From Noviherbaspirillum sedimenti (GTDB lineage Bacteria > Pseudomonadota > Gammaproteobacteria > Burkholderiales > Burkholderiaceae_D), in the NCBI RefSeq assembly GCF_003590835.1, contig NZ_QYUQ01000002.1, positions 1 through 64,000 of the forward strand: DNA of 64,000 bases. Reading direction: 5' to 3'. A program made the position numbers and the translations under genes. Every line of letters begins with the position of its first letter. Position 1 is the stretch's first letter. Positions 43,167 through 58,663 of this stretch are shown here, piece after piece. The notes beneath the pieces are model-generated. The model was given only the letters and a program-made list of their open reading frames with translations, ran no database searches and was not told where the DNA came from.

Positions 43167-43460
43167 GGTGGATTTTAGTGTGTGCGGTAAAACCGGACAT
43201 TATACCTGAGCGGGGAAGTGGGCTTGGCGCGTGACGCTTCGTCTGCCTGTTAGGTGGCTGATATATTAAAAATGAAAAATTGACTTAATTGCAATTATTG
43301 GCCTCTTGTCGATCGCTGAAAATTGCATTCCCGACTAATTTTGACGCTTGGTGGTCGTGGCTGTACTACAAGAAAGCAACAAATCATGAGGCAGTCTGTA
43401 CAATGCATTTTGTTAACTAAATCAGGCCGCACCGTTACGCTGCCGTCAATTAGCCTACGC
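43167..43460. other. Intergenic region between prfB and the multidomain helicase gene
   Basis: The 294 bp gap is divergent and must hold the promoters for prfB-lysS and for the large fusion gene. An AT-rich stretch at about 43260-43300 is a likely promoter zone. No RNA or repeat is evident. The frame of the fusion gene is open further upstream (TTG at 43323, ATG at 43386), so part of it may be coding. Confidence 0.45.
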
Positions 43461-46400
43461 ATGATCGACACGCTCGCTTACTACAACAACAACGCTGCAG
43501 ACTTTTTTTCGAATACTGTTTCCGTTGATATGTCGGTCCTGTATGACCGATTCCTTTCGGTGCTGAGTCCCGGCAGTCTGATCCTCGACGCTGGCTGCGG
43601 CTCTGGTCGCGATGCCAAAGCATTCATGCAACGCGGCTTTCGTGTCGCCGCTTTTGATGGTTCGGCTGAGTTGGCGCGTATGGCAACTGCGCATGCCGGA
43701 ATCGAAGTCGCCGTGCGCAGTTTCGCTGACGTGGGTGAGGTTTCTTGTTACGACGGCATATGGGCTTGTGCAAGCCTGCTCCATTTGCCGGCAACGGAAA
43801 TTTCTTCGGCCTTGCAGTCGCTGTGGGCGGCATTAAAGCCGGGCGGGGCTTTTTATCTCAGCTTTAAAATCGGTGTAGGCGAGCGGACGCAAGGCGGCCG
43901 CCATTTCACGGATATCAGTGAACCCCAACTTCGCGAATGGTTGGGCATACTGCCGGACCTCTTGAGTATTGAATGCTGGGAAACAGCCGACCAGCGTCCG
44001 GGGCGTTCGGAGCAATGGCTCAATGCGATCATCATGCGCGCCATGCCGGGGAAAAGTCGGCTTGTGACTGGTGGCGACGATCCGTTCTTGCCGCATCTGT
44101 GCGAGGCTATGAACAAGGCTTCGGAAGTCGATTTGGCGGTCGCCTTCATCAAAACGACCGGGCTTCGCTTGCTGCTGCCGGATTTGCAAAGCGCGCTTGT
44201 GAAAAAAGAAAACGGGAATTCTGCGCGAGTGCGCGTCAGAATATTGACCAGCGATTACCTCGATGTTACCGATCCGGAGGCGCTGCGTTTGTTGATGCTG
44301 CTGCAGGAGCAGGGGGCGCAAGTACGTGTGTATGAATCAGCGGGCAGCAGCTTCCATCTGAAAGCCTATTTGTTCGCGAGCATTCACGGCGAAGGCGGAT
44401 TGCAGGGCACCGCCTTCGTCGGCTCAAGCAATATCAGCAGGCAAGCCCTACAAAACGGCCTCGAATGGAATTACCGTGTCGATTATCCGGGAGATTCAGG
44501 GTTTTTAGAAGTTCGCGCCAGATTCGATGAGCTATTTTCTCATCCGCGCAGCCTGTCCCTGACCGATGCCTGGATTGATCGGTATGAGGCACGCCGTGTG
44601 CCGCTACCGCGCGCAGTGGAGGCGGGTAGTCAGGAACAAGAACCGCCGCCCGAGCCGACTGTCGTGCAATTCGATGCATTGCAGGCATTGGCTGATACAC
44701 GCCATGAGGGTTTTCGTCGGGGCTTGGTTGTATTGGCTACTGGCCTTGGCAAGACTTGGCTCGCAGCATTCGATGCTGAACAGGTAGGGGCGCGTCGGGT
44801 TTTGTTTGTAGCCCATCGTGAAGAGATATTAAATCAAGCTGCGCAAACATTCTTGCGCATCCGGCCTCGTTGCCGGGTTGGTTTCTACATGGGAAAAACT
44901 CGGGATGTTGAAGTTGATGTCCTGTGCGCTTCAGTGCAAACGCTCGGGCGCGATTGTCACCTGGAGCGCTTTTCGCCTCAGCATTTCGATTACATCGTCA
45001 TTGACGAGTTTCACCATGCGGCGGCTCCCACCTATCGACGTTTGCTCAGTTATTTTGCGCCGCGATTTTTGCTCGGGTTGACCGCCACGCCGGACCGCTC
45101 CGATCACTCGGATATCTTGTCGCTGTGTGATGACAATCTGGTATTCACTCGTGGCTTGTTTGACGGCATTCACTCTGGCCTGCTCGTGCCATTCCACTAT
45201 TTCGGCATTTATGACGATACGGTGGACTACTCGGAAATACCCTGGCGTAACGGGAGGTTTGATCCAGAAAAACTGTCCAATAAGCTAGCAACCTTGGGAC
45301 GCTCAAGACACGCGCTCAGGGAGTGGCGGAAGCGCAAGCAGCAGCGAACTCTGGCGTTTTGCGTTTCGATCGCGCACGCCGAATTCATGGCGAGCCAGTT
45401 TAGTAAAGAGGGTATTGCTTGTGCGGCAGTCTATGCTGGTTCGAGCCTGAGCCGTGCGGATGCTCTGGAGCGGCTACGGGATGGCCGGCTTGCTGTGATT
45501 TTTTCTGTTGACTTGTTCAACGAAGGTGTTGACTTGCCGGCCATCGACACGGTCATGATGCTGCGACCGACGGAATCCAAGATTCTCTTCCTTCAGCAGC
45601 TTGGTCGCGGCTTACGCAAGAGCGATGTCAAGGAAAAATTGGTAGTGCTCGATTTCATCGGCAATCACAAGAGCTTTTTGCATAAGCCACAGGCACTATT
45701 CGATGTCGGCAGTGGCTACAAGAAATTGGCTGAATTCGCGCGTAAAGCCGAACATGGCCGATTGGAATTGCCGGATGGTTGCTATGTGAATTATGACTTG
45801 CAATTGATTGACTTTCTAAAGTCGCTCGATGGCGATGGTATTCAAAAAGAATACGAGGCGCTGCGGGAAGGGCTTGGACGCAGGCCTTCGCTTGCCGAGT
45901 TTTATCGTGCTGGCGCGAGTTTGCAGACGATGCGCAAGCAGTACGGTGGCTGGTTTGAGTTGGTTGGCGCCATGAGTGACTTGACTTCGTCAGAGGCCGC
46001 TATTGTTGAGAAATATCGCGACTTCTTGAAGGAAGTCGAAGTCACTGCGATGACCAAAAGCTTCAAAATGGTTTTGCTGGAGGCTTTTCAAGAAATCGAT
46101 GGATGGCAGAAAGCACCGACGATAGATGATTTGGCCGCTCGTTCATGGGATGTGTTGCAGCGCCGCCGAGACTTGCTTACGGATTTGGACGGCGATGAAA
46201 GAAGTTTGCCAGATGGTTATAACCAAACATGGAAAAAATATTGGTCAAATAATCCAATTGTTGCTTGGATTAAGAGAAAAGACATAGTTAAAGGGAGTCC
46301 GTTTTTTGAAGTGGCTGGCGATTACTTTCAACCTGTGTTTGCTGTAATGCCAGAGCATCGAGATGTGTTTGAGCCGATGTTGCAGGAGCTTGTAGATTAC

Positions 46401-47330
46401 CGTCTTGCTGCCTATGAAATCCGTCGAACAAGTTCGGTCGAACAGAGCAATGTCTTGCCATTCCAGCGTACTGAAAATGCAGCAAGTCGGAATCGCACCG
46501 AGTTACCCTATTTCCCGAATTTAAAAATTGCTTGCGGTCATTTCAAGACCGGCTCTGCTGATGTCGAGGAGTATCGCGGGCTGGGAGGCGGATTTGGACG
46601 CTTGGACCCGCAACGCCACTTCATTGCGCGTGCTTCAGGAAATTCAATGAATGGCGGGAAAAGCCCGATTCATGACGACGATTATCTCTTGCTGGAACAT
46701 TTGTCGCCGACGAAGGCCGGTTCGATTACGGGGGCTGTCGTGGCCATCGAGCGTGATGATGGCGGAAGCGGAGACAGCCAGTACCTCTTGCGTGAAGTAT
46801 TGAAGTCTGCCGATGGTAGCTATATTCTTCATGCGCATAATCCGGATTATGAAGATATGCCAGCGACTGACGAGATGCGTACGCTGGCGCGTTTCAAGGC
46901 CGTCATTGACCCGCTGGACATCGCCCTTGGTCAATCCTTCATGCGCGAAGAGATTCCTGCGCTTTTCGGGGAAAGCTTCAACCCTGGTAATTGGAATGTC
47001 GGCCACGTCAATTTGAGCGACAAGAAAGCGCATGTATTGCTTGTCACGCTGAACAAGCAGGGTAAGTCGGAAGATCATCGCTATCTGGATCACTGGATCG
47101 ATGACACCCATTTTCATTGGCAAAGCCAAAATTCCACGACGCCGGCCAGCAAGCGCGGACAGGAAATTATCGAGCATGAGAAGTTGGGGATCGCCATTCA
47201 CCTGTTTGTACGAGAAGGCAAACTGGGAAATGGCAAGGCCGCACCATTCGTTTATTATGGACCGGTCCGGTATGGCAGTCATACGGGAAGCAGTCCGATG
47301 AGCGTGATTTTTGAACTCGTAAATTTTTGA
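43461..47330 (+). CDS. Methyltransferase - PLD nuclease - SF2 helicase - S24-like - DUF3427 fusion protein
   Basis: The 1289-residue protein joins several domains in order. A class I SAM-methyltransferase (1-195; ILDAGCGSGRD at 41-51) comes first. A PLD/HKD nuclease follows (about 205-370; H298-K300, S321-N323). Then comes an SF2 helicase (about 400-730; ATGLGKT 425-431, DEFHH 514-518, TATPDR 540-545, QLGRGLRKS 712-720). A linker follows, then an S24/LexA-like segment (SGNSMNGGKSP 1058-1068) and a DUF3427 tail (about 1165-1289; FHWQSQ, LFVRE). PLD-helicase-DUF3427 proteins are known as putative restriction or defence nucleases; the added methyltransferase is unusual. The start was chosen to match methyltransferase N-termini. 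The function is inferred. Confidence 0.85.
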   Translation: MIDTLAYYNNNAADFFSNTVSVDMSVLYDRFLSVLSPGSLILDAGCGSGRDAKAFMQRGFRVAAFDGSAELARMATAHAGIEVAVRSFADVGEVSCYDGIWACASLLHLPATEISSALQSLWAALKPGGAFYLSFKIGVGERTQGGRHFTDISEPQLREWLGILPDLLSIECWETADQRPGRSEQWLNAIIMRAMPGKSRLVTGGDDPFLPHLCEAMNKASEVDLAVAFIKTTGLRLLLPDLQSALVKKENGNSARVRVRILTSDYLDVTDPEALRLLMLLQEQGAQVRVYESAGSSFHLKAYLFASIHGEGGLQGTAFVGSSNISRQALQNGLEWNYRVDYPGDSGFLEVRARFDELFSHPRSLSLTDAWIDRYEARRVPLPRAVEAGSQEQEPPPEPTVVQFDALQALADTRHEGFRRGLVVLATGLGKTWLAAFDAEQVGARRVLFVAHREEILNQAAQTFLRIRPRCRVGFYMGKTRDVEVDVLCASVQTLGRDCHLERFSPQHFDYIVIDEFHHAAAPTYRRLLSYFAPRFLLGLTATPDRSDHSDILSLCDDNLVFTRGLFDGIHSGLLVPFHYFGIYDDTVDYSEIPWRNGRFDPEKLSNKLATLGRSRHALREWRKRKQQRTLAFCVSIAHAEFMASQFSKEGIACAAVYAGSSLSRADALERLRDGRLAVIFSVDLFNEGVDLPAIDTVMMLRPTESKILFLQQLGRGLRKSDVKEKLVVLDFIGNHKSFLHKPQALFDVGSGYKKLAEFARKAEHGRLELPDGCYVNYDLQLIDFLKSLDGDGIQKEYEALREGLGRRPSLAEFYRAGASLQTMRKQYGGWFELVGAMSDLTSSEAAIVEKYRDFLKEVEVTAMTKSFKMVLLEAFQEIDGWQKAPTIDDLAARSWDVLQRRRDLLTDLDGDERSLPDGYNQTWKKYWSNNPIVAWIKRKDIVKGSPFFEVAGDYFQPVFAVMPEHRDVFEPMLQELVDYRLAAYEIRRTSSVEQSNVLPFQRTENAASRNRTELPYFPNLKIACGHFKTGSADVEEYRGLGGGFGRLDPQRHFIARASGNSMNGGKSPIHDDDYLLLEHLSPTKAGSITGAVVAIERDDGGSGDSQYLLREVLKSADGSYILHAHNPDYEDMPATDEMRTLARFKAVIDPLDIALGQSFMREEIPALFGESFNPGNWNVGHVNLSDKKAHVLLVTLNKQGKSEDHRYLDHWIDDTHFHWQSQNSTTPASKRGQEIIEHEKLGIAIHLFVREGKLGNGKAAPFVYYGPVRYGSHTGSSPMSVIFELVNF

Positions 47331-47388
47331 TATTCCAACGCTTGGCGCTGCTTGTGATGCCTCCAATAACACCAACAATACCGGCACC

Positions 47389-47871
47389 ATGTTTATGAAG
47401 TCATTAGCATTCCTTCTAAGCCCACTTTTTTTAACTATTCAGCTGCTGGTACCTGCGTATGCCCAGAGCCTCCCCGTTCCTTCGCGCACCGTATTCAAGT
47501 GCGAGATCAATGGTAAAGTCGTCTATTCCGATTCCCCGTGTCTCGGGGCACAGCGACTGGATATTCAGCCTACCCGTGGAGTCGATAAGTCGACGGGAAA
47601 TGAGCGTATTGGTAAGGATGTGCGCCAAGAACGCAGTGATGAACAAATGGCCAAGGCATGGGAACCGATTTTTGCAGAAACGCCAGAGCAACGTGCCAAG
47701 CGCCATCGCCGTGCGGCACTCAAGCCCGAGGCGCGTACTCAGTGCAGTCGGTTGGATCAAGAAATCGCATTAGCCGAGCAGGCCGAACGCAGCGTTACCA
47801 AGGCAATGCTGTCGGACGTGCAGTCAGACCTAATGCGGTTGCGTCGGCAATATAGAGAGTCTCGATGCTGA
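47389..47871 (+). CDS. DUF4124-type secreted protein
   Basis: The 160-residue protein has a signal peptide (cleavage near AYAQ) and the DUF4124 start pattern (VFKCEINGKVVYSDSPC). A charged helical region follows (MAKAWEPIFAETPEQRAKRHRR). DUF4124 proteins are periplasmic and of unknown function. It follows the fusion gene by 58 bp on the same strand, but shares no obvious link with it. Confidence 0.75.
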   Translation: MFMKSLAFLLSPLFLTIQLLVPAYAQSLPVPSRTVFKCEINGKVVYSDSPCLGAQRLDIQPTRGVDKSTGNERIGKDVRQERSDEQMAKAWEPIFAETPEQRAKRHRRAALKPEARTQCSRLDQEIALAEQAERSVTKAMLSDVQSDLMRLRRQYRESRC

Positions 47872-47920
47872 TATGAATGAATTGAATATCCAGTCTACGA
47901 AATTGTGCTGTCCGAACGCG

Positions 47921-48724
47921 TCACTCGCTTAAAAAGACATGCGCATGGTGCCATTCGATGAACTCTTTATCTGGCTGAAATTTTTCAGGTAATGCAATCA
48001 GTTTCCCTTCGATTCCTGATAGCCATTCGGAAGAAAAAAGATTGCTTTCGCCAGTTTTAATTTCTTTGGATACCTTCACCCTGAATTCAGTGGTTAAGGT
48101 GATCAATCCTTGATCAAAGGCTCGGTCGTGCAATGCTGATAAACACAATCCGTTGCGGGGGTTCAGGCGATTGTTGGCGTCCCAACGCCATGGGACAATA
48201 TGACTCGCAACGAGCAAGCGAGAGTGTGACAACCCTGTGATGCAACATCGGTTTTGGTAAGCACTCATCACTGAGCGTCTAAAGAAATTCTGCCCGATAC
48301 GTATTTTCGCTTGGGTGATTTTTTCGGTGCCCACATAGTTTTCAGGCGATTCGCCATCGGCGGTGCCCAGCGGTTGCGATGTCAAATCGTTTTCCATTTC
48401 ATCAGCCGTCGGCAAAAGTGCATCTACCTCGGCTTGGCTTTCCAACGCGAAGTCTTCCCAACCGTGTTGCATTTCCTCCCACATTTTTTTGTCGGATGCG
48501 GAGGCGCTCGTGAGTCCCTTTCGGCCGGTGGATGTAATTGCAGGATCAAGACTCGCAATATTGGTGAGCTTCATCGCTAATGCAGAAGGAGTGCGTCCGA
48601 TTAGCGCCGCGAACTTAATAATGTCGCCATTCTTCGAATGCATTTTGCCGAATGGCATCTGGCAGTAGAGATAAAACGCGACTAAAAGTTGATTGCGTGT
48701 CCAGCCTTGGTGTTTTTCTGCCAT
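47921..48724 (-). CDS. HNH restriction-type endonuclease
   Basis: The 267-residue protein has a C-terminal HNH domain of the COG3440 type (CCITGLSHSRLLVASHIVPW, then NRLNPRNGLCLSALHDRAFD), with H in ASHI as the general base and N and H in the second half as metal ligands. The N-terminal part (TRNQLLVAFYLYCQMPFGKMH) is typical of stand-alone HNH nucleases linked to restriction. No methyltransferase is adjacent on this strand. It lies near the large fusion gene and a Fic gene, in a defence-like context. Confidence 0.85.
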   Translation of the reverse strand: MAEKHQGWTRNQLLVAFYLYCQMPFGKMHSKNGDIIKFAALIGRTPSALAMKLTNIASLDPAITSTGRKGLTSASASDKKMWEEMQHGWEDFALESQAEVDALLPTADEMENDLTSQPLGTADGESPENYVGTEKITQAKIRIGQNFFRRSVMSAYQNRCCITGLSHSRLLVASHIVPWRWDANNRLNPRNGLCLSALHDRAFDQGLITLTTEFRVKVSKEIKTGESNLFSSEWLSGIEGKLIALPEKFQPDKEFIEWHHAHVFLSE

Positions 48725-48735
48725 GTCGAAAGATC

Positions 48736-48913
48736 TCAGTCCGCCAATTCGTAAGCCGTACTACGCCCGCCCCCCGGCGCCTTGCGCAGCACACCAAATC
48801 CTATCATCTCATTGATGTCGCGCAGCGCCGTATCCGGCGAACACTTGGCGATGGCGCCCCATTTGCTGCTGGTGAGCTTGCCTTCGAAGCCGTCCAGCAG
48901 CCGGTTGAGCCGC
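48736..48913 (-). pseudogene. C-terminal remnant of a Fic protein (winged-helix tail)
   Basis: The minus-strand frame reads RLLDGFEGKLTSSKWGAIAK, CSPDTALRDINEMI, and GGGRSTAYELAD before the stop at 48736-48738. This is the C-terminal winged-helix end of DUF4172-type Fic proteins. The Fic core is missing. The last 40 bp recur almost identically at 58618-58657. It is probably the leftover of a second Fic gene, next to a full Fic gene upstream. Confidence 0.7.
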
Positions 48914-49012
48914 TTTGCCGAGCAAATGCACGGCCACTTCCTGGATGCAGAATCCCGCCGTTTTCATAGCCGGCGGAATCTCGCTGCTGCGCACGACGCA
49001 TGCGTGCCGCGC

Positions 49013-50371
49013 TCACTTGAATTGATTCTCCTTCCATGCCGCAAACTCGGACGGTCTCAGCCCGTAACGCGCCAGCACGCCCTCGTGCAATCGCCGCAAC
49101 TCTTCCACGATCAATGCCTGCATGCTGCCACGCTCGGCCTCGGGCACAGTGGTGTCCACGGCGCGCCGGATGATGGCGAGCGCATCGCCTCCCGGTTGCG
49201 TCACCACTTCCCGGATCGTTTGCTTGATGAGATCCCGCCAGGCAAGGCGAAGCGGATCGGGTTCCGCCAACTCCTGCCTGATGGCCCGATATTCCTGCGC
49301 CGAGCGTTCATAGGCCCAGACGTACAGGTCGCGCAATAGTTCCACCCTGGTCAATTCATACACGCCGAGGATGGCGCGGCTGTAGGCCTGCTCCGGCACA
49401 TCGAGGAAGGTCAGCGGGCACAGGTTGGCGCGAAAAAGCGGCAGATTGGCGGCGAGCCGCGAAGTACGTTTGTTGATGTCGGCAAAAGGCTGCAAATACG
49501 GCAGATGCACCATCATGAAGAAGGATTGTTCGAACGGGTCGACGATTCGGTTGGCCTTTTCAAGCAGTATATCCAACAGGTCGTCGAGTTGCTGGGGCGT
49601 CGACAGCGGCCGATAGACGCTCTTGCCGATATCCACGGCATGCTGGCGGATCCGGCCTTCGTCGGCCGGATTGGGCAGCAGGTTTTCCGCCAGCGCGCTG
49701 TGCAGGTTCATCACCGTGTAGCGGTTGAATTCGGCGGTGTCGATGTTGCCGACCAGCAGTTCGATTGCTGTCTTGTGGTTCAGGATCATCTGCGTTTCGA
49801 TGGTCGCCTTGCCTTGCGCCGCCTTGCCGTGTTCGATGAGTTCGCGGGTATCGATCCGGGAATAGGTATTTCCCTCCAGGTGACTCGACGCCCAGGACAG
49901 ATCGATCAGCAACCGGTTCAGGATGGCGCGGCTGTATGTGCCTGCCGGCGCCTCGGTCTGCGGCGTTTTCCCGATTTTATGCAGTTGCCGTCGCAGTGGC
50001 GCGGACAGATACCAGGTGTCGTTGGGTTGATAGGCGTCGAGAAATTCGCGCTGGTAGCCAACCGGCGTGCGCGCCTCGTGCGGCTGATCGATGTAGGCAA
50101 GAATGTCCCGGCTGTCGGCGGAAAGGGGAATGAAATTCGGGAAAGCATCGCCCCCGGAGCCCGACGTAATTTCAGGCGATGTGTGCGTTGCAAAATAGCG
50201 GCGGGCACGACCCGCGCCGCCAGGCCTTATTTTTCCTTCAGCAAGCAAACGACTGATCAGGCGCTGTGCCGTTCTGCGGGCCAAGCCGGGATGCAGCGGC
50301 AGCAACTCGGCGAGCGATAGCCCGGCAGGCGCTGCCTGAATATTTTGCAGGAGTTTGTCGATGGCTGACAT
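49013..50371 (-). CDS. Fic-domain protein with altered catalytic motif
   Basis: The 452-residue protein has an N-terminal winged-helix region (LSLAELLPLHPGLARRTAQR) and a Fic domain. The inhibitory helix motif is visible at S162-N168 (SHLEGN). The active loop reads Q294-P-F-A-D-I-N-K-R-T-S-R305, whereas active Fic AMP-transferases have H at the first position and G in place of I. The catalytic histidine is thus replaced by glutamine. AMPylation is doubtful and another role, such as regulation or a decayed toxin, is possible. Confidence 0.85.
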   Translation of the reverse strand: MSAIDKLLQNIQAAPAGLSLAELLPLHPGLARRTAQRLISRLLAEGKIRPGGAGRARRYFATHTSPEITSGSGGDAFPNFIPLSADSRDILAYIDQPHEARTPVGYQREFLDAYQPNDTWYLSAPLRRQLHKIGKTPQTEAPAGTYSRAILNRLLIDLSWASSHLEGNTYSRIDTRELIEHGKAAQGKATIETQMILNHKTAIELLVGNIDTAEFNRYTVMNLHSALAENLLPNPADEGRIRQHAVDIGKSVYRPLSTPQQLDDLLDILLEKANRIVDPFEQSFFMMVHLPYLQPFADINKRTSRLAANLPLFRANLCPLTFLDVPEQAYSRAILGVYELTRVELLRDLYVWAYERSAQEYRAIRQELAEPDPLRLAWRDLIKQTIREVVTQPGGDALAIIRRAVDTTVPEAERGSMQALIVEELRRLHEGVLARYGLRPSEFAAWKENQFK

Positions 50372-50553
50372 GGAGAGGGTGGCGCGATTTTATCGATAAT
50401 GGCGCGATTATGGCCTGATTTTCTAAATCGCGCCAAAATTTTGGCGCGATTTAGGCTGATTTCCTTGAACTGCGCCAAATTGCCGTCGTAGCGGCGTCCA
50501 TCCTTTTTCAGCAAGTTCTTCTGCTTCCAGCGTGAAAATGAGGGCATAAGTCA

Positions 50554-50733
50554 TTACGCTTTGGCAGGGGTTTTTTTGCCAGCAGTGGCTTTCTTGTGTT
50601 CGGCGGCGAGTCTGGAGCGCACCTGATCGACGGTAACGGCTCTTGATGGGTCTGCTTTCAGTGGGGTACTCGCCGGCTGCAACCTTGGATTTCACGACCT
50701 CGGCCATTTCAAGGTGATGTCGGCGCTGGGTTT
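50554..50733 (-). pseudogene. Frameshifted ParD-like antitoxin remnant
   Basis: The first frame gives HHLEMAEVVKSKVAAGEYP, a ribbon-helix-helix ParD-like start. After a frame change near 50660 the other frame continues ADPSRAVTVDQVRSRLAAEH and KKTPAKA to the stop at 50554-50556. This stop overlaps the ATG of a ParE-like start (MTYALIFTLEAEE) at 50552-50554. The parE frame loses its family resemblance after about 13 codons. This looks like a decayed parDE pair. Confidence 0.5.
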
Positions 50734-50737
50734 CAAA

Positions 50738-50800
50738 CTACCTGTTCCCTTGTGCGTGCTCCACCAGCAACACCTTCAAATGCTCGTTCTTGAGCGCGCG
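50738..50800 (-). pseudogene. Duplicated fragment of the recJ 3' end
   Basis: The minus-strand frame reads RALKNEHLKVLLVEHAQGNR and then a stop. It combines two parts of the RecJ C-terminus, LKEKHLKLLL and KVQLLVEHAQGE, with the segment between them deleted. The intact recJ end lies at 58664 in the same orientation, so this is a direct repeat about 7.9 kb away. A further short similarity to RecJ (LLKKDGRRYD) lies at about 50480-50520. Confidence 0.65.
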
Positions 50801-50924
50801 TAACTTTCCTATAGCAATTTTGGTTGTCTAATATGCAATTTTGGCGTAGCATGCCTTGTTGCAAATTGATCAACATTTGCTCTTAACTCTCGACATTAAA
50901 ACGAACGCGTCGCTAAAGGATGCC

Positions 50925-53669
50925 ATGGATCTCAAAGACATCATGCTGGCCAGGTCAGGATTGACCGAAACCAATCGTCCCATTCGATTGCGTCTATCTC
51001 ATGCAGATGGTGTCCTGGAGGACATGCTTCTGATCAAGCACGTGTCCGGCACGGAAACCATCAATGGCGGACTTGAGTATCGCTTGTTGTGCGTGTCTGC
51101 TCGCGGCGACCTGCCGCTCAAGGACTTCATGGCAATCCCGGTGGAAATCCAGTTCGTCACGGATAGGGGCGCCTTGCGCTCCGTGTGCGGCTTGATCAGC
51201 CAGGCTTTTGCCGGACACCATGATGGCGGGCTGGCATCGTATCAACTGGTCATTCGCGACGCCCTGGCTTTGATGGAACAGCGCGTCAATACCCGCGTGT
51301 TTCGCAACCTGAATGAACTGGATATTTCCAAAGTTATTCTGGACGAGTGGAAGCAAACCAGTCCGATCCTGGCCAATGCATTTGATATTGACTGGAACTG
51401 CCTTTCCGGAACTTATCCTGCCCGTGAATTCACGATGCAGCATAATGAATCTGACAGCCAGTTTCTGCGGCGGCTCTGGAAGCGACAGGGCATTGCATGG
51501 TTTATCCGGCCTGGCAAATCCGCAGAACCTGGGTCCAGCGATTTTCCATCGCATACCCTTGTGCTGGCTGACAATACGGAGGCCTATCAGCAGAATGCCG
51601 CCGGCACCGTTCGCTACCATCAGGATAGCAGCACGGAACAGCGCGATACGGTCACCAGCTGGAATGCCATGCGTTCCCTGCGCCCTGGCGTCGTTACCCG
51701 CCATAGCTGGGATTATGCCAAAGCTGGATTGATGGAGACTTCAGCGCCGTCCCGGATGCATCAGGGCAGCGCCGGCGACCAGATGGCGGCCAGTCTGGAA
51801 GACTATGCGATCGATGTTCCCCACGTCGCTGAAAACAGCGATGATTATGATCGTCTGGGCGAATTGCGCATGCTCCGCCATGAGCTTGAATCCAAGTGTT
51901 TTCATGGCGAAGGCAGCGTGCGTGACCTGTGCGTGGGGCAATGGATAGGACTGGCTGGTCATCCGGACATTGATGGTCATGCGCCACATGAGCGAGAGTT
52001 CGTCATTACCAGTATCGAGGTGGATGCCGATAACAATCTGCCCAAGGAGATTGCTGACCATGCGCAGCGCCTGTTCTCGCGTGAAGCGGGGTGGCTGCAG
52101 GACTTTCCCGGTGCGCTGGGCAAGGCCAGCGCCGAGCGGGGTGCGCGCTACACCAACCGTTTTTCCTGTGTGCGCCGGGGCATACCGATTGTGCCGGCAT
52201 TCGATCCTGCCATCGATTTGCCGCGGACGCGAATCCAGAGCGCCATTGTGGTGGGACCCGCAGACGAAGAGGTGCACTGCGACGAGTATGGCCGGGTCAA
52301 GATCCGGTTTCCCGGCACGCGCGCATCCAACCATGAGCACGCCCAAGGTGCCGGTGCCAGCAATTCCGGCCGCGACTCGGCATGGGTGCGGGTGGCCAGT
52401 ACCTGGGCAAGCAGTCAATGGGGCAGCTTCACCCTGCCAAGGATCGGTGACGAGGTGCTGGTGGATTTTCTGGGCGGCGATCCAGACAAACCCATCATCG
52501 TCGGCCAGGTCTATAACGGCAAAGCGCCCCCGCCAAACTTTACGCATACCGGAACCTTGCCGGAGAATCGGTATGTCTCGGGCATCAAGAGCAAAGAGGT
52601 GCGCGGTCGCCGCTACAACCAGTTGCGGCTGGACGATACGCCCGGCCAGATCAGTGCCCAGCTCGCTTCCGAGCATGGCCATACGCAACTGAACCTTGGC
52701 TATCTGACACAGCCGCGCGTCGATGGCGCGGGCGCGCCGAGAGGGGAGGGCGCAGAGTTGCGCACGGATGGGGCGCTGGCGCTGCGCTCCGCCAAACTGA
52801 TGCTGTTGTCCACACAAGCCATGCAGGAAGCGCAGGGCAGGCAGCTGGAACGTCAGGTGATGCTTACCGCGCTGGAAAGCTCGCATGGATTGCTTGAAGA
52901 GCTGGGCAAGTATGCGGCAGAACACCATGCATTGCCGTTCGACGTGGAAGCGCACGGCAAGATCAACCAGCGTCTGGAAAAAGCCGAGCAGGGCAACAAT
53001 ACCGATCCGCAAGGCGGGACTGGCGGTGATCCTCTCATGGCGCTGTATGCGTCAGGCGGCTTTGCATTTGCGACGCCGTATTCCTCCGTTACCTACAGTG
53101 GCAAGCACCAAGACCTGGTGGCGCAGCAAAACGTCCAGCTGACGGCCGGTGAAAACTTCAACGTCAATGCCGGCAAAGGAATTTCCCTTTTTGCGCATCG
53201 CCAGGGCGTCAAGCTGATTGCGCATCGCGAAGATGTCGATATCCAGTCTCATCGGGACAGCATCAACCTGGCTGCGCAAAAGGATGTCCGGGTAAGCGCC
53301 AGCAGTGGCGAGGTCACCATTGCCGCTGACAAGCGCATCATGCTGGTTTGCGGTGGCGGGTACATCAAGATCGAAGGCGGCAACATCGAGCTTGGCTGCC
53401 CGGGGACCTTTACTGTCAAGGCCAGCCAGCATGCCTGGGCGGGGCCTTCCAGTGCCTCGCGGGAGATGCAGAAGTTCTCGGAAGGGGCGCTTGAGTTCAA
53501 TGATCGGTTCGTGCTGGCTGACATGCTGGGCGATCCGGTGGCCAACCGCAAGTATGAAATCAAGCGCGGTGATGGCTCAATTATTCGCGGCGTGACCAAT
53601 GAGCAGGGGCAGATTGAGCAGCAACAGAGCTTATTGAATGAACAGATTGAAATCAGGATTTTGGGATAA
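50925..53669 (+). CDS. vgrG: Type VI secretion spike protein VgrG
   Basis: VgrG forms the trimeric tip of the T6SS needle and carries effectors. The 914-residue protein has the gp27-like domain (residues 1-400), the gp5-like OB region (VVGPADEEVHCDEYGRVKIR, WVRVASTWAS, RIGDEVLVDFLGGDPD), a DUF2345 needle (about 690-840), and a short C-terminal extension (RFVLADMLGDPVANRKYEIK) likely to bind the effector. I chose the ATG at 50925 behind AAGGA; the frame is open from TTG 50856. The lipase gene starts 2 bp after its stop. Confidence 0.93.
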   Translation: MDLKDIMLARSGLTETNRPIRLRLSHADGVLEDMLLIKHVSGTETINGGLEYRLLCVSARGDLPLKDFMAIPVEIQFVTDRGALRSVCGLISQAFAGHHDGGLASYQLVIRDALALMEQRVNTRVFRNLNELDISKVILDEWKQTSPILANAFDIDWNCLSGTYPAREFTMQHNESDSQFLRRLWKRQGIAWFIRPGKSAEPGSSDFPSHTLVLADNTEAYQQNAAGTVRYHQDSSTEQRDTVTSWNAMRSLRPGVVTRHSWDYAKAGLMETSAPSRMHQGSAGDQMAASLEDYAIDVPHVAENSDDYDRLGELRMLRHELESKCFHGEGSVRDLCVGQWIGLAGHPDIDGHAPHEREFVITSIEVDADNNLPKEIADHAQRLFSREAGWLQDFPGALGKASAERGARYTNRFSCVRRGIPIVPAFDPAIDLPRTRIQSAIVVGPADEEVHCDEYGRVKIRFPGTRASNHEHAQGAGASNSGRDSAWVRVASTWASSQWGSFTLPRIGDEVLVDFLGGDPDKPIIVGQVYNGKAPPPNFTHTGTLPENRYVSGIKSKEVRGRRYNQLRLDDTPGQISAQLASEHGHTQLNLGYLTQPRVDGAGAPRGEGAELRTDGALALRSAKLMLLSTQAMQEAQGRQLERQVMLTALESSHGLLEELGKYAAEHHALPFDVEAHGKINQRLEKAEQGNNTDPQGGTGGDPLMALYASGGFAFATPYSSVTYSGKHQDLVAQQNVQLTAGENFNVNAGKGISLFAHRQGVKLIAHREDVDIQSHRDSINLAAQKDVRVSASSGEVTIAADKRIMLVCGGGYIKIEGGNIELGCPGTFTVKASQHAWAGPSSASREMQKFSEGALEFNDRFVLADMLGDPVANRKYEIKRGDGSIIRGVTNEQGQIEQQQSLLNEQIEIRILG

Positions 53670-53671
53670 TT

Positions 53672-55348
53672 ATGAGCGATCACATTCCTTATAAAGATGA
53701 GAGATCAGACCCGTTGCGTCTTGTTGAAGTCAAGGATGAAGGAACCGGAAGCGATGTCGTTCGATGGTCTTTGACGAACCGGAATTTAAATGATCCGGTT
53801 GTCATTACGGTCAGGCCGACCACAGTCCTTCCCATTATTTTTGTCCCAGGCATCATGGGCTCCAACCTCGCATTGATTAATGCTGTGGGTAAAAAAAGCG
53901 CTGGCGCACCTGTGTGGGTATTCAATAGTGGTGGCGGTATGGCGTGGGACTGGACTTCCCTCAATCCGGCCGAGCGTCAGAGGCTCCTTGATCCAGCCAA
54001 TACCCGAGTTTATGCAGGCGGCGATGTGCCAGACAGCATGGATGCCATTGGAGATGCAAGTGCCATTCGCAACAATCGATTCTGGGGCGAGGTCGGCGCC
54101 GGAAGTTACGAAGAGTTTTTGGTCTGGCTTTCAGACGCACTGAACACCAAGCGAGGCATCCTTTTTACGCAAAAGCCATTGATTGATAAAAATTTCACGA
54201 AAGATTGGGGACCTGTAAGTGGCGGTTTTATCAAAACAGAGAAGGACGATGTCGATCACGCTACAAAAATCAGTTTCCCTGTTTATGCATGTGGTTATAA
54301 CTGGCTACAGTCCAATTTTGAATCTGCAAAAATCTTACAAAAGCGCATCGCTCATGTCATCAAGGTAAATAATGGTCCTTCAAGAAAATGTGAAAAGGTG
54401 ATTTTGGTCACCCACTCAATGGGCGGATTGGTAGCCCGGGCTTGTTCTGAATTGCTAGGCATGCAGGACAAGATTGCTGGCATTGTGCATGGTGTCATGC
54501 CCGCTACTGGCGCTGGCGTTGCATATAAACGTGTTCGAGCCGGCAGCGAAGGAACCGCGCAGTTGGTGCTGGGCAGGAATGCAGAAGCAGTCAGTGCAGT
54601 GTTTGCCAATGCGCCTGGAGCATTGCAGTTATTACCCAGTCACACTTATCCGTCAGAGTGGCTTCAGCTAGGCGTCAATACTGGCAAGAACTTCAAAAAG
54701 CTGCATGCAGTACCGGCAGCTGACAAAAACCCCTATGACGAGATTTACCTCAAGCGAGGCGAATGGTGGTCGCTGATGCGCGAGGAGCTGATTAATCCGG
54801 CTGGCGTCAGTACGCACCGCGGTTGGGCTGATTATGCAGGCAACGTTGAAACAGCCAGAAAGTTCCATAATAAACTGGCGCCGCCTGAACTTTTAAAGGG
54901 AAAGTATCACCCTGTTACCTATTCGCTGTATGGTTGTGGTGACGACGATAGTGACGAGAGGACTTGGGGTAATGTGCGATGGGAGTGCGAAGGCGCTTAT
55001 CGTATAGATCATGCTTACCGCATGGACAATCCGTTTTCGAACAAGGTACCAACCGATTTATCCAAAGCAAAGATGCTGAATGAATTGCGTGTTACGAACG
55101 ACGATGGAAATGGTGGAATAAGCATGGTGCAAGGTAAGATGATGTGGAATTTTGAATTATCCGGTAAGGATAGCGGTGGAGATGGCACAGTCCCTACATG
55201 TTCAGGATCGGCGGCTAATGCCGGTAGTTTGAAGTCTTATGCGTTGACCGGAATTGAACATGAGCCCGCCTACCGAAACAGCCATTTTCAGCTGGCTACA
55301 CTGCACTCCATTTTAAAAATCGCTCGTAGAGTTAGGGTTCTTGCATGA
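53672..55348 (+). CDS. T6SS phospholipase/lipase effector, Tle class
   Basis: The 558-residue alpha/beta hydrolase has the oxyanion-type VPGIMGSNL near the start and the nucleophile elbow THSMGGLVA (GxSxG type). A likely acid residue lies in SGGDGTVP and a histidine in GIEHEPAY or NSHFQLATLH. The LCAT-like layout and its place between vgrG and an immunity-like gene mark it as a membrane-attacking effector delivered by this VgrG. The downstream partner resembles Tli4, so a Tle4-like class is the best guess. Confidence 0.8.
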   Translation: MSDHIPYKDERSDPLRLVEVKDEGTGSDVVRWSLTNRNLNDPVVITVRPTTVLPIIFVPGIMGSNLALINAVGKKSAGAPVWVFNSGGGMAWDWTSLNPAERQRLLDPANTRVYAGGDVPDSMDAIGDASAIRNNRFWGEVGAGSYEEFLVWLSDALNTKRGILFTQKPLIDKNFTKDWGPVSGGFIKTEKDDVDHATKISFPVYACGYNWLQSNFESAKILQKRIAHVIKVNNGPSRKCEKVILVTHSMGGLVARACSELLGMQDKIAGIVHGVMPATGAGVAYKRVRAGSEGTAQLVLGRNAEAVSAVFANAPGALQLLPSHTYPSEWLQLGVNTGKNFKKLHAVPAADKNPYDEIYLKRGEWWSLMREELINPAGVSTHRGWADYAGNVETARKFHNKLAPPELLKGKYHPVTYSLYGCGDDDSDERTWGNVRWECEGAYRIDHAYRMDNPFSNKVPTDLSKAKMLNELRVTNDDGNGGISMVQGKMMWNFELSGKDSGGDGTVPTCSGSAANAGSLKSYALTGIEHEPAYRNSHFQLATLHSILKIARRVRVLA

Positions 55349-56382
55349 CGAAAATTTCAAGGAATGTGTTGATTATCTTCGGCGTACTCGCCGTTGTTAC
55401 GACAGTACTATTTCGCATTAATACTTTTTCAGCCACCGCAAACGCCCAAGAGAAAAAAAATATGGAACCGTATACCCAAAACATGAAGAAGCAATGTTAC
55501 GGCCGGTTTTTGGTCGACATCCCGCAGCAGAGTAAGGAGGGCGGAAAGGGGACTTACGAATTTGGATTTGCTAATATTTCTGTAGGGCGGCACGAAAAAA
55601 CCATGCCACATTTTCAGGCGTACGCTACCAGTATCAAGGAAAGCTATGCAGCGCAACGTACCTTGGAAAACGCGCCCAGACTGGTGCATGCCGAAACTAT
55701 ATCGGACGATGCTAGATTCATTGCCTACTATGATGATGACTTCGGCATCGTATTCAAAACGCTCGGTCTAGTAAAGAAAGAGAATATCCTTTTTAAGGTG
55801 GAGGCTCATGGATCGGAGAAGCCCGAGCTTGAGGCGTTCTCTCAGAACCTGCAGAATCTCATTCCCCACCTGAAGCCGCGTGCCAATAACGAGATTCCTA
55901 CTGGCCCAGGATTTTGTATGGATGGCGCCATCATTACAACGCAGCACAAGAAGGGCGAGTACTATTCTAGTGGATTCACGCTGCCGGAATTTCCTGAACT
56001 TTATTTCGGATTCAGCACCAACGTTAATGGTGACAAGGTTGACCCAGGAATTATTGACCGTGAAGCAAATATCATCAAAGACCTTGGCGGATTTATTACC
56101 CAAATTAAAACCATTAGAAAAGGTCGCCGGATGATCAATGGCATGGAAGCTCAGGAATGGCTTACCCGTCTGCCACCCGGCGATACCCATGAATACTCTT
56201 TTGAACTCGACATTGTAGGTAAGCCGAATTCCATTTCGGAATCGCGCATTTCTGTTGGCATGCGTTTGACAGGGAGTCAAGTGGGAAACAAGAGAGAACC
56301 TGTAAAGATGACCGAGGCCGAAGCTCTGCTGCTGTGGGATGCAGTCACTAGCACGATCCGCCCGCGGCCAGGAGCGGTCTGA
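55345..56382 (+). CDS. Tli4-like T6SS immunity protein
   Basis: The 345-residue protein overlaps the lipase stop by 4 bp (ATGA). It has an N-terminal membrane anchor (NVLIIFGVLAVVTTVLF) and faces the periplasm, as expected for immunity against lipase effectors. YGRFLVDIP in the N-terminal part and the later GFCMDGAIIT segment match the two-domain Tli4 pattern. Base composition is more AT-rich than that of the neighbouring core genes, which fits horizontal transfer with the effector. Confidence 0.75.
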   Translation: MTKISRNVLIIFGVLAVVTTVLFRINTFSATANAQEKKNMEPYTQNMKKQCYGRFLVDIPQQSKEGGKGTYEFGFANISVGRHEKTMPHFQAYATSIKESYAAQRTLENAPRLVHAETISDDARFIAYYDDDFGIVFKTLGLVKKENILFKVEAHGSEKPELEAFSQNLQNLIPHLKPRANNEIPTGPGFCMDGAIITTQHKKGEYYSSGFTLPEFPELYFGFSTNVNGDKVDPGIIDREANIIKDLGGFITQIKTIRKGRRMINGMEAQEWLTRLPPGDTHEYSFELDIVGKPNSISESRISVGMRLTGSQVGNKREPVKMTEAEALLLWDAVTSTIRPRPGAV

Positions 56383-56384
56383 GC

Positions 56385-56648
56385 ATGAAAGGTGTCATTC
56401 GCGTCGGCGATCCCACCAGCCATGGCGGCACGGTCGTCGCCGGCGCGCCGACAAAAACCGTCAACGGCATCCCGGTGGCGCGTGTCGGCGATGCCTGCAC
56501 CTGCCCCCGAAAAGGCCACTCGGGATGTGTTGTCGCGGAAGGCGATCCAACCGTGACGATCGACGGCATACCGGTGGCCTTCCATGGCCACAAAACGTCC
56601 TGTGGTGCCTCCCTGATTTCGACCATTCCAACATCCGGCAAGGGCTGA
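56385..56648 (+). CDS. PAAR-domain spike-tip protein
   Basis: The 87-residue PAAR protein sharpens the VgrG tip and binds zinc. PAAR motifs are visible (VIRVGDPTSHGGTVVAG and IPVARVGDACTCP), with later histidine and cysteine ligands (GHSGC and FHGHKTSCG). It starts 2 bp after the immunity gene. With vgrG, lipase and immunity genes it forms a complete cargo module lacking the sheath and baseplate genes. Confidence 0.93.
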   Translation: MKGVIRVGDPTSHGGTVVAGAPTKTVNGIPVARVGDACTCPRKGHSGCVVAEGDPTVTIDGIPVAFHGHKTSCGASLISTIPTSGKG

Positions 56649-56840
56649 TTCGCGTCCAGGCAAGTTGTCCAGGCCTGTGCATGGCGCTCGGTCAGCATCG
56701 CCTGCATGCGGCAGATATTTTCGACAGTAAGCTCGCGGTGCGCGCATTTGGCGTCATCGAGGTTGGGCAAGGATTACAGTAATGCGTAGAATCGCAGTGG
56801 TGTGTACACTTCCGGCCTATCGTTTTTATTTGCCTGAACC

Positions 56841-57650
56841 ATGACCATCACCATCAACGAAGACCTCCGTGCCTATATCGACCCGCTGACCGAAGACGAA
56901 TATGCTTCGCTGGAGCGCAGCCTGCTGGCGGAAGGCTGCCGCGATGCCCTGGTGCTATGGGGCGACCTGCTGGTGGACGGCCACAACCGCTACGGCATCT
57001 GCCAGAAGCACGGCATCCCTTTCAATACCATGCAGAACGAAACATTCAAGTCCATCGACGATGTGCACCTGTGGATGATCGACAATCATCTCGGGCGGCG
57101 CAGCGTGTCGGATTTTCAACGCGGCGTGCTGGCGTTGCGCAAGAAAGAAATCGTCTCGGCGCGCCTGGCAGAGGCACAAGCCCAGCAGCCACCCGCCAGG
57201 CCAGACGGTGCAGATACTGCCGCGAAGCCGCCAGTTGCGCCACCGTTGACACGCGAGGGCATTGCGCGCGCAGCCCGGGTGAGCAGCGCGACGCTGGGAC
57301 AGATCGAAAAAATCCAGAAAACGGCGACGCCCGAACTGGTCAACGCAGTCAAATCAGGCGATATTTCGATCAATGCTGCCGCTGTCGTCGCTTCCCTGCC
57401 GAGCGAGAAGCAGGTGGCGGCGGTTGCCGGCGGCAAGAAGGAACTGCGCCAGGTGGCGCGGCAGGTGCGCGAGAGCAGGTTGCCGCCCAAGCCGGAAGTC
57501 GAAGCCCCACCCAGCGATGCTACGCCAGAACAACTTGAAATTCATCGCCTGAAGCTGCAGGTGGCGGAACTTGCCGAAGAGCGCGATCAGTTGAAAAAGA
57601 AGGTGCAGCACTTGACCATTGCGCTGGCGGAGGCGCGTGGAGGGCAATAG
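56841..57650 (+). CDS. ParB-like/KorB-type DNA-binding protein
   Basis: The 269-residue protein has an N-terminal ParB-N/sulfiredoxin-like fold (DPLTEDEYASLERSLL, then GDLLVDGHNRYGICQKHG). A middle helix-turn-helix segment follows (TREGIARAARVSSATLGQIEK), and the C-terminus is a coiled coil (LEIHRLKLQVAELAEERDQLKKKV). It has no ParA partner nearby. Such orphan ParB-like proteins are common on plasmids and islands. It may mark a former mobile element or act as a regulator. Confidence 0.7.
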   Translation: MTITINEDLRAYIDPLTEDEYASLERSLLAEGCRDALVLWGDLLVDGHNRYGICQKHGIPFNTMQNETFKSIDDVHLWMIDNHLGRRSVSDFQRGVLALRKKEIVSARLAEAQAQQPPARPDGADTAAKPPVAPPLTREGIARAARVSSATLGQIEKIQKTATPELVNAVKSGDISINAAAVVASLPSEKQVAAVAGGKKELRQVARQVRESRLPPKPEVEAPPSDATPEQLEIHRLKLQVAELAEERDQLKKKVQHLTIALAEARGGQ

Positions 57651-57725
57651 TAGCCATGCGGGCATTCTCCGCATTTAATGCGGAGAATTGTGCCGTATTC
57701 GCCGCAGGCGCAACGCGGCCTTGGT

Positions 57726-57769
57726 AATGCAATTGCATTGACATGGTAATGCGATCGCATTACCATGTC
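57726..57769. promoter_or_regulatory. Two palindromic operators before prlF-yhaV
   Basis: A perfect 30 bp palindrome at 57740-57769 has the half-site GACATGGTAATGCGA. It is preceded directly by a perfect 14 bp palindrome at 57726-57739 (AATGCAATTGCATT). Both share the core AATGC-AT-GCATT pattern. They lie about 35-75 bp before the antitoxin ATG, where autorepression by the PrlF-YhaV complex is expected. Confidence 0.7.
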
Positions 57770-57801
57770 GGGTATTCTCTCCCATTTGTCCGGAGCCCCC
57801 C

Positions 57802-58131
57802 ATGGTTACCACTCTCGAAGTTGAATCTACCCTGACCGACCGTTACCAGACCACGGTGCCGGAGACTGTGCGCCGCGCCCTCCGGTTGGGCAAACGGGAC
57901 AGGATTCATTACTCCATTCGCTCCGGTGGCGAAGTCGTGCTGACGCGAGCCGCCGCATTCGAGGCAGACGACCCTGTGCTTGGACAATTCCTGGGCTTCC
58001 TTGCCCGTGACATCGTCAGCCATCCGGAGCGCGTGCAGGCAGTTGATGCCAGCCTGGTGCTGCGCCTTCAGTCGCTGGTTGGCGATATCGAGGTCGATTT
58101 CGATGCCCCCCTGTCGGCAGACGATGAATGA
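57802..58131 (+). CDS. prlF: PrlF-family antitoxin
   Basis: The 109-residue protein has an N-terminal AbrB/MazE-type swapped-hairpin DNA-binding region (ESTLTDRYQTTVPETVRRAL) and an acidic C-terminal tail (DIEVDFDAPLSADDE) that should bind the toxin. It matches the PrlF (SohA) group in length. Its stop overlaps the toxin start (ATGA), so the two are translationally coupled. Palindromic operators lie upstream. Confidence 0.88.
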   Translation: MVTTLEVESTLTDRYQTTVPETVRRALRLGKRDRIHYSIRSGGEVVLTRAAAFEADDPVLGQFLGFLARDIVSHPERVQAVDASLVLRLQSLVGDIEVDFDAPLSADDE

Positions 58132-58637
58132 GGGGCGGCAAGCCCGCGCCTTTGGTCGTCAATGGCTGGGCGATCTTTGCCCATCCCCTGTTTCTCGCGC
58201 AACTTGGTGCGCTGACACGGCAAGTTGAGGCGCTCAAGCAAAAAGACCCGGCCGGATATATGAAGAAAAATGTCAGCAAGCGGCTTGCCGCGATTTCCAG
58301 GTTGGCGTTCGAGGTGATTCCGCAGGATCCGGCGCGGCCGGAATACCGGCAGGGAAACGCCCTTGGCGAGGAACACAAGCATTGGTTCCGTGCTAAATTT
58401 TTTCAGCAGTACCGTCTCTTCTTCCGCTACCACGCATCAAGCAAGGTAATTGTCTTCGCCTGGGTCAATGACGAGGATACGAAGCGTGCCTACGAGAGCA
58501 GCGATGACGCTTACCGGGTGTTTCGCAGGATGCTGGAAAGCGGCCATCCGCCGGATGAATGGGATCGGCTGCTGGCTGAGTCGCGATCTTTGAAGGAAAA
58601 TTCACCCTCGCCGCTTTCTCAGTCCGCCAATTCATAA
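58128..58637 (+). CDS. yhaV: YhaV-family toxin
   Basis: YhaV is an RNase toxin neutralised by PrlF. The 169-residue protein contains typical segments (PLVVNGWAIFAHPLFLAQL, KRLAAISRLAFEVIPQDP, HKHWFRAKFFQQYRLFFRY, VFAWVNDEDTKRAYES). The last ~10 residues (SPLSQSANS) are read through the reverse of a Fic remnant, so the original C-terminus may have been replaced. The core residues look complete. Confidence 0.88.
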   Translation: MRGGKPAPLVVNGWAIFAHPLFLAQLGALTRQVEALKQKDPAGYMKKNVSKRLAAISRLAFEVIPQDPARPEYRQGNALGEEHKHWFRAKFFQQYRLFFRYHASSKVIVFAWVNDEDTKRAYESSDDAYRVFRRMLESGHPPDEWDRLLAESRSLKENSPSPLSQSANS

Positions 58638-58657
58638 GCCGTACTGCGCCCGCCCCC
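58618..58657 (-). repeat. Second copy of the Fic C-terminal end (40 bp)
   Basis: These 40 bp match 48735-48774 with two differences and encode, on the minus strand, GGGRSTAYELAD and a stop. They sit between the yhaV stop region and the recJ stop at 58664. The copy is a direct repeat of the one near the HNH gene, about 9.9 kb away. Confidence 0.8.
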
Positions 58658-58663
58658 AATGTT

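Follow-up and report, generated by a model that had tools for sequence, protein, structure and literature searches.

A single gene joins a methyltransferase, a SauUSI-like core and a LexA-like domain

The window analysed here is a 64,000-nucleotide stretch of Noviherbaspirillum sedimenti (contig NZ_QYUQ01000002.1, positions 1 to 64,000). It contains one open frame, from an ATG at 43461 to a stop at 47330, that encodes a multi-domain protein of 1289 residues. A sequence-only reading of this DNA had placed all parts of a restriction-like system in one chain, and the single frame and the order of its Pfam domains bear this out. Methyltransf_25, PLDc_2, ResIII/Helicase_C, Peptidase_S24 and DUF3427 follow one another in the protein, every one above its curated cut-off. 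The gene is laid out as follows.

43461..47330, + strand: whole gene, 1289 aa plus stop; methyltransferase (MTase), PLD, SF2, coupler, S24-like and SRA-like (DUF3427) parts
43461..44045, + strand: class I S-adenosylmethionine (SAM)-dependent MTase, residues 1-195 (Pfam, conservation, structure model)
44058..44630, + strand: PLD-family nuclease, residues 200-390 (Pfam, conservation, SauUSI alignment)
44643..45740, + strand: superfamily 2 (SF2) DExH motor, residues 395-760 (Pfam, conservation, SauUSI alignment)
45741..46475, + strand: coupler region, residues 761-1005 (assigned by position; the SauUSI coupler occupies the same place)
46482..46910, + strand: LexA/lambda-CI-fold S24-like domain, residues 1008-1150 (Pfam, model, alignment)
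46533..46538, + strand: C1025-G1026, which pairs with Cys-Gly in the UmuD alignment
46644..46646, + strand: S1062, at the S24 nucleophile position (alignment)
46791..46793, + strand: R1111, at the S24 catalytic Lys position (alignment; pairing with Lys by eye)
46911..47327, + strand: DUF3427, SRA-like target-recognition domain (TRD), residues 1151-1289 (Pfam, model, SauUSI alignment)

The central part of the protein is of a known kind, as the sequence-only reading had recognized. Its closest solved relative is SauUSI (PDB 7clg, E 5e-90), which lacks an MTase; the N-terminal methyltransferase does lie outside the known form. The top PADLOC match (E 1e-115) is mREase_IV (PDLC03659), a type IV methyl-directed restriction enzyme, with its best stretch at residues 216-777. 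According to excerpts of the SauUSI paper (PMC7913695), a coupler sits between the SF2 motor and the SRA-like TRD, and the DUF3427 domain reads modified DNA. The C-terminal TRD is present here, and its D1210 and W1220 match SauUSI D858 and W868.

Key residues of the core are invariant in all 125 rows of the fused family. These are H299, K301, N324 and E335 of the PLD domain and K431, D515, E516, R716 and R719 of the motor, along with its Walker A GK, DEFHH, T541/T543 and GRGLR. H299 and K301 align with the SauUSI HxK residues H119 and K121. The key residues named beforehand are therefore kept, though their numbering was off by 1-3 (the correct positions are H299/K301, K431 and D515/E516). Loss of these residues across homologues was looked for and was not seen in the 125-row alignment.

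The methyltransferase lacks a DNA-methyltransferase motif

No DNA-MTase motif is found in METHYLTRANSFERASE (residues 1-195). A search of these residues for motif IV ([DNS]PP[YFW] or PC) returned zero PP or PC pairs; the motif IV region reads DGIWACASLLH. A Pfam scan of the MTase for a DNA-recognition part found none. The structure model (predicted local distance difference test, pLDDT, 95.8) best matches PDB entry 3e23, RPA2492 with SAM, at a template modelling (TM) score of 0.91 and 33% identity. The next structural matches are natural-product, N-terminal-protein, RNA and similar methyltransferases. None of the 50 listed matches is named as a DNA methyltransferase, an absence that is not in itself proof. 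As modelled, the fold is of the small-molecule/protein type. DNA-MTase identity was rejected on the missing motif and the 50 listed matches. For the same reasons, and because DUF3427 in SauUSI reads modified DNA, the earlier claim that this domain supplies modification in the restriction-modification (R-M) sense is not supported.

Twelve MTase residues (D43, G45, G47, G49, R50, D51, D98, A104, H108, S134, R147 and W186) are invariant in 125 of 125 rows. The SAM loop and the active-site region are invariant or nearly so, both in the fused family and in stand-alone MTases beside other nucleases.

The S24-like domain carries arginine at the catalytic lysine position

The S24-like domain has the LexA/UmuD/CI fold. 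Its model aligns with CI and LexA structures, including the cleavage region and complexes with RecA. C1025-G1026 is conserved as Cys-Gly in all 125 rows of the fused family and in 10 of 10 rows of HNH nucleases bearing this domain (HNH-S24). A further 75 HNH rows were chosen by the ACG motif itself and are not counted for Cys-Gly, so degenerate copies could be missed. A weak UmuD profile match (E 0.029) places this Cys-Gly on that of UmuD, which we take to be the UmuD cleavage site. The S1062 position is Ser in 199 of 200 rows.

At the R1111 position, Arg occupies all 198 rows that have a residue there, with two gaps. The LexA and UmuD-like proteins of the same genome have Lys at the equivalent position. 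This pairing was made by eye on the sequences as printed, because the site was not cleanly covered in the HMMER alignments. K1115 (K in 120/125 and 191/200 rows) was considered as an alternative general base and set aside, since by eye it falls on the residue of LexA that lies four positions beyond the catalytic Lys. LexA that carries Arg in place of Lys156 retains cleavage when the pH is raised. Self-cleavage of the S24-like domain appears doubtful from these alignments because the LexA Lys position is Arg in every aligned relative. Of the LexA-like segment that the sequence-only reading suggested could sense or self-cleave, the fold stands and the self-cleavage is doubtful.

The domain order is common, but the gene is patchy in whole genomes

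Of 7998 candidate homologues scored, 5692 matched at E<=1e-3, and 120 of these, the window's own included, were listed. The 119 other listed homologues all cover at least 90% of the query at an identity of at least 65%; the same domain order is therefore common in other genomes. Across whole genomes the fused gene is patchy. Besides the window, a sample of 399 genomes from the order held one full-length fused relative (L014), and a sample of 398 from the phylum held one (L041). No full-length match was found in five same-genus genomes. GTDB species genomes were also scanned with an S24 alignment. This gave 311 encoding stretches, and the 80 best were retained; by their titles these come mostly from Beta- and Gammaproteobacteria. 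A phage origin was considered and is not supported. With the 1289-residue protein (P0001) as query, viral contigs gave no confirmed relative, the S24 profile found one (L139), and neither the S24-like domain nor the HNH-S24 protein had a match among phage records.

The methyltransferase accompanies S24-bearing nucleases

We counted MTases at the 80 loci found by S24 patterns only. The MTase is fused in 63, directly upstream on the same strand in 9 and downstream on the opposite strand in 1; it is absent from 4, and 3 lack room. It is thus fused or directly upstream in 72 of the 77 loci with room. At least five of the nine upstream cases are fused genes broken by a stop or frameshift. Among the 106 S24 loci from all searches, the MTase is fused in 66, upstream in 28, downstream on the opposite strand in 2 and absent from 5, with no room in 5. 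L014 and L079 are identical, which leaves 93 of 100 distinct loci with the MTase fused or upstream. Small copies of loci refetched at larger size and the window's own copies were left out of these counts. The detector was the family's own two hidden Markov models (HMMs), which would miss unrelated MTases. More broadly, the pairing statistics rest on HMMs built from the family itself, only the closest loci of each kind were kept, and a few clades supplied the genome samples.

We also counted 43 PLD-SF2 frames without the S24-like domain. No MTase accompanies 35 of these, two lack room and two have one downstream only (L055, L187). The other four (L096, L120, L129, L131) are the front halves of interrupted S24 genes. 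Stops or frameshifts interrupt five copies within the 80 S24 loci (L096, L120, L122, L129, L131), as might be expected for costly genes. A second SauUSI-like gene, without the S24-like domain, lies within a few kb of an MTase-nuclease unit in three loci (L117:9949-13134, L161:13697-16405, L187:3052-6195). Another such gene (L201:6099-9368) lies within a few kb of an HNH gene of the kind described below.

Different nucleases stand behind a conserved methyltransferase

In two settings, a kept MTase is followed by different nucleases. The Pseudoalteromonas plasmids L161, L200 and L202 share an ABC-F flank (88-92% DNA identity), the MTase region (79-86%) and short downstream stretches (about 80-82%). 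Behind the MTase, L161 carries a PLD-SF2-S24 nuclease, whereas L200 and L202 carry HNH nucleases, and no DNA match between the two kinds was found at E 1e-10. L193 and L243 share 1.9 kb of upstream DNA and a NUDIX-MTase gene at 84-85%, followed by PLD-SF2-S24 in L193 and by an SBD-HNH nuclease in L243. Near-identical S24-like domains also occur on unrelated nucleases. The S24-like domains of L161 and of the HNH protein P0141 share 95.7% identity; P0193 and P0141 are 56% identical in the HNH part and 96.6% in the S24-like part. On a quick MTase tree, ten partner labels require 22 changes against a minimum of 9; they are still clustered (shuffled mean 32.5). This tree has 58 rows, with 16 fused genes drawn at random, and many of its branches are weakly supported.

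A family of the window's class (f53, 147 genomes) was scanned with the MTase profile, and 26 of its genomes yielded 27 strong matches. Twenty-four are fused to, or within 475 bp of, a nuclease or SF2 gene. Of the rest, one (L244) is a fusion with an unknown part, and no nuclease or SF2 partner accompanies the two weakest. The partners are PLD-SF2 with or without S24, HNH with or without S24, other HNH kinds, and a second SF2 type with S24 (L191, L194, L195) or without it (L236, L242). Two HNH matches within this census fall below the Pfam cut-off (L238 and L241, 16.6 and 19.6 bits versus 21.4). The SBD-HNH nuclease of L243 lies 475 bp downstream of the NUDIX-MTase gene and scores 358 bits on NF045808, the NCBI model for phosphorothioate-binding enzymes (cut-off 180). 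L192, L193 and L243 have NUDIX fused ahead of the MTase, and in L203 a stand-alone HIT gene occupies the place of the MTase.

Among 15 HNH loci of the first kind, the MTase is directly upstream in 12 and not in 3. L139, a contig from a viral collection, holds an MTase gene with an HNH-S24 protein. A more distant MTase type adjoins L042, L133-L135 and L149, and it is this type that is fused to HNH in the six frames of 572-605 aa described below. SOS-response-associated peptidase (SRAP) genes adjoin such HNH genes in L139 (6356-7057) and L203 (6150-6782), by chance or through a link to DNA damage. BREX and ABC-3C genes occur as neighbours only, in L204 and L161.

As a control, lower-scoring MTase matches were examined in 25 genomes of one family. 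They fell in 20 places, from which two strong matches and the G432 locus, all already known, were left out. The remaining 17 (E 3e-23 to 3e-9) include six single-chain MTase-HNH frames of 572-605 aa (L252-L255, L260, L261), with a second MTase type N-terminal and HNH near the C-terminus; Pfam HNH_4 is above its cut-off in all six. Nine of the other 11 have no nuclease-side match in the 8 kb fetched. L256 has a weak HNH match on another frame (22 bits) and L257 a weak SF2 match (17 bits). More distant MTase relatives thus also pair with nucleases, while the most distant class I MTases do not; three of the HMMs used here were built from some of the same loci.

The gene lies in an accessory, low-GC insertion

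The locus is an accessory, low-GC insertion beside prfB, in keeping with the accessory region described earlier. GC falls from 62% to 49-56% across the fused gene. Same-genus DNA identity ends 5' of prfB; of four relatives compared, three lose it at 43.21-43.22 kb and one at 43.17 kb. It returns at 56.8-58.7 kb in three (G002, G003, G005); the G004 contig ends earlier. HNH_2, Fic and VgrG genes share the insertion.

43220..58660: variable insertion between prfB and the next genus-conserved block; right edge about 56.8-58.7 kb
47921-48724, - strand: HNH_2 protein beside the fused gene; C-terminal part related to phosphorothioate-binding endonucleases (68.9 bits, below the cut-off of 180)
49013-50371, - strand: Fic/DOC-family protein
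50856-55348, + strand: VgrG-like type VI secretion protein, then an alpha/beta-hydrolase protein; possibly an antibacterial effector

The same-genus genome G003 retains the HNH_2 gene (89-95% DNA identity) without the fused gene.

A proposed mechanism and its alternatives

We narrowly favor a SauUSI-like, modification-sensing DNA shredder fitted with a portable, nuclease-independent MTase/LexA-like control module. The SRA-like C-terminal domain would screen DNA for modification or another target. The SF2 motor would translocate on DNA using ATP, and the PLD domains, paired between two protomers, would cut. By homology to SauUSI, the 1289-residue protein would cleave modified DNA, probably in defense. 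The MTase and S24-like domain would act as a control module independent of nuclease type. The RPA2492-like MTase may safeguard or license the nuclease by methylating a ligand, a partner or its own protein, rather than placing a mark on DNA. The LexA/CI-like domain may serve for docking or gating, with RecA filaments on damaged or replicating phage DNA as its possible readers. Its autocleavage would be slowed or lost because the Lys is Arg.

Several observations weigh against this reading. SauUSI E126, the acidic residue of the H(X)K(X)4E motif that follows HxK, is A306 here. Position 306 is A in 94, T in 19, S in 8 and V in 2 of 123 rows, none of them acidic. Only one of six S24-less SauUSI-like genes inspected has E there; we therefore treat the position as variable rather than defining, hence the label SauUSI-like. 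The methyl-contacting Tyr831 of SauUSI is H1182. Given both changes, specificity for 5-methylcytosine is not to be assumed. Of the five S24 loci that have room but no MTase, one (L070) is a full-size core and four are partial frames. Nucleases without the S24-like domain also have the MTase as a partner (8 of 11 HNH-only loci; L236, L239, L242), so the two extras do not form a single module in the strict sense.

A self-contained R-M enzyme, whose MTase would mark host DNA while PLD/SF2 cut unmarked DNA in the manner of type IIG or ISP enzymes, would account for intact MTase catalytic residues and for a constant MTase with a variable, often fused nuclease, as in R-M systems. It is nonetheless decidedly unlikely, given an MTase without motif IV or a DNA-recognition part, whose fold is nearest small-molecule, protein and RNA methyltransferases, and a core TRD whose type is a reader of modified DNA. 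A member of the MTase family also stands at the head of the SBD-HNH nuclease of L243, phosphorothioate-binding per the NCBI model. An SOS switch, in which RecA filaments trigger cleavage at C1025-G1026 and either sever the SRA-like reader from the motor-nuclease or free the nuclease, fits the conserved Cys-Gly and Ser, the weak UmuD alignment and the resemblance to CI and LexA in the cleavage region and RecA complexes. The invariant Arg argues against it, as does the position of the S24-like domain, which comes last in L043, L044 and the HNH forms, where cleavage would merely trim an end. We regard such a switch as improbable.

The small-molecule-type fold, the NUDIX fusions, the HIT gene and the different nucleases behind a constant enzyme could also reflect a signal-controlled effector. 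A nucleotide-like signal would then be made, capped or cleared during infection by the MTase, which in some relatives has NUDIX or HIT partners, and the nuclease would be one effector among several that can replace each other. A cyclase, a receptor or a known sensor domain was not found, the core has its own DNA reader, and NUDIX and HIT were seen in these few loci only; little probability attaches to this scheme. Domain shuffling is common in restriction enzymes, and the MTase-less core of L070 suggests that the added parts might be bystanders fused to a SauUSI-type enzyme without shared function. Against this, 125 sequences show strict conservation of the motifs in the MTase, PLD, SF2 and S24-like parts alike, and the pairing is found again with unrelated nucleases, which makes bystander fusion a poor prospect.

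Beyond the modification-sensing shredder favored above, the data suggest, tentatively and at somewhat less than even weight, a modular class of immune nucleases. A constant RPA2492-like MTase head, sometimes with NUDIX in front, would be joined to an exchangeable body (SauUSI-like PLD-SF2, other SF2, several HNH kinds or SBD-HNH), often with a LexA/CI-like Ser-Arg domain at or near the C-terminus. The head and the LexA-like domain would provide nuclease-independent on/off control, and bodies would be swapped by recombination between conserved flanks. The window protein would be a version with everything in one chain.

In many bacteria, enzymes of the SauUSI type curb gene transfer. If the reading is right, a portable enzyme and a LexA-like domain that control sets of nucleases would constitute a shared safety or trigger mechanism, one not found in the literature and libraries searched. 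The MTase motif plus ACGHF...GNSM...YLLR would also offer a sequence handle for discovering nucleases by association. The protein raises the question of what use an MTase without a DNA-MTase motif is to a DNA-cutting enzyme. Its invariant Ser-Arg S24-like domain is a direct test case for the purpose of Lys in the Ser-Lys dyad.

Comparison with known systems

The core is of a known kind. In the open-access PMC literature we found no paper describing this domain order or the MTase-S24 pairing, nor the MTase head, the Ser-Arg LexA-like domain or the change of body behind a constant MTase; a prior description of the identical order, which would have undercut the claim of an undescribed system, did not turn up there. 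SauUSI, a Staphylococcus aureus type IV restriction enzyme of 953 aa, has PLD, SF2 DExH, coupler and DUF3427 TRD in equal order, according to excerpts of PMC7913695 and PMC3874153. It differs in having neither MTase nor S24-like domain, in the acidic residue after HxK and in Tyr831, which is His here. The best stretch of the PADLOC mREase_IV match reaches neither the MTase nor the S24-like domain.

RPA2492, an uncharacterized class I methyltransferase, shares the entire MTase fold; its structure was solved alone, and the record states no function. Type IIG and ISP single-chain R-M enzymes differ in motif IV, which the MTase lacks, and the one SRA-like TRD of the 1289-residue protein gives no sign of serving the MTase. 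LexA, lambda CI and UmuD share the fold, including the cleavage-site region, the Cys-Gly and the serine. They differ in the catalytic Lys, replaced by Arg here, and in context; the S24-like domain lies inside or at the end of nucleases, with no repressor DNA-binding domain seen. SBD-HNH phosphorothioate-dependent endonucleases (PMC7461809, in excerpts), in whose main text the word methyltransferase is absent, are represented by the L243 enzyme, which follows a NUDIX-MTase gene of the same MTase family; both nuclease and reader are other than those of the 1289-residue protein.

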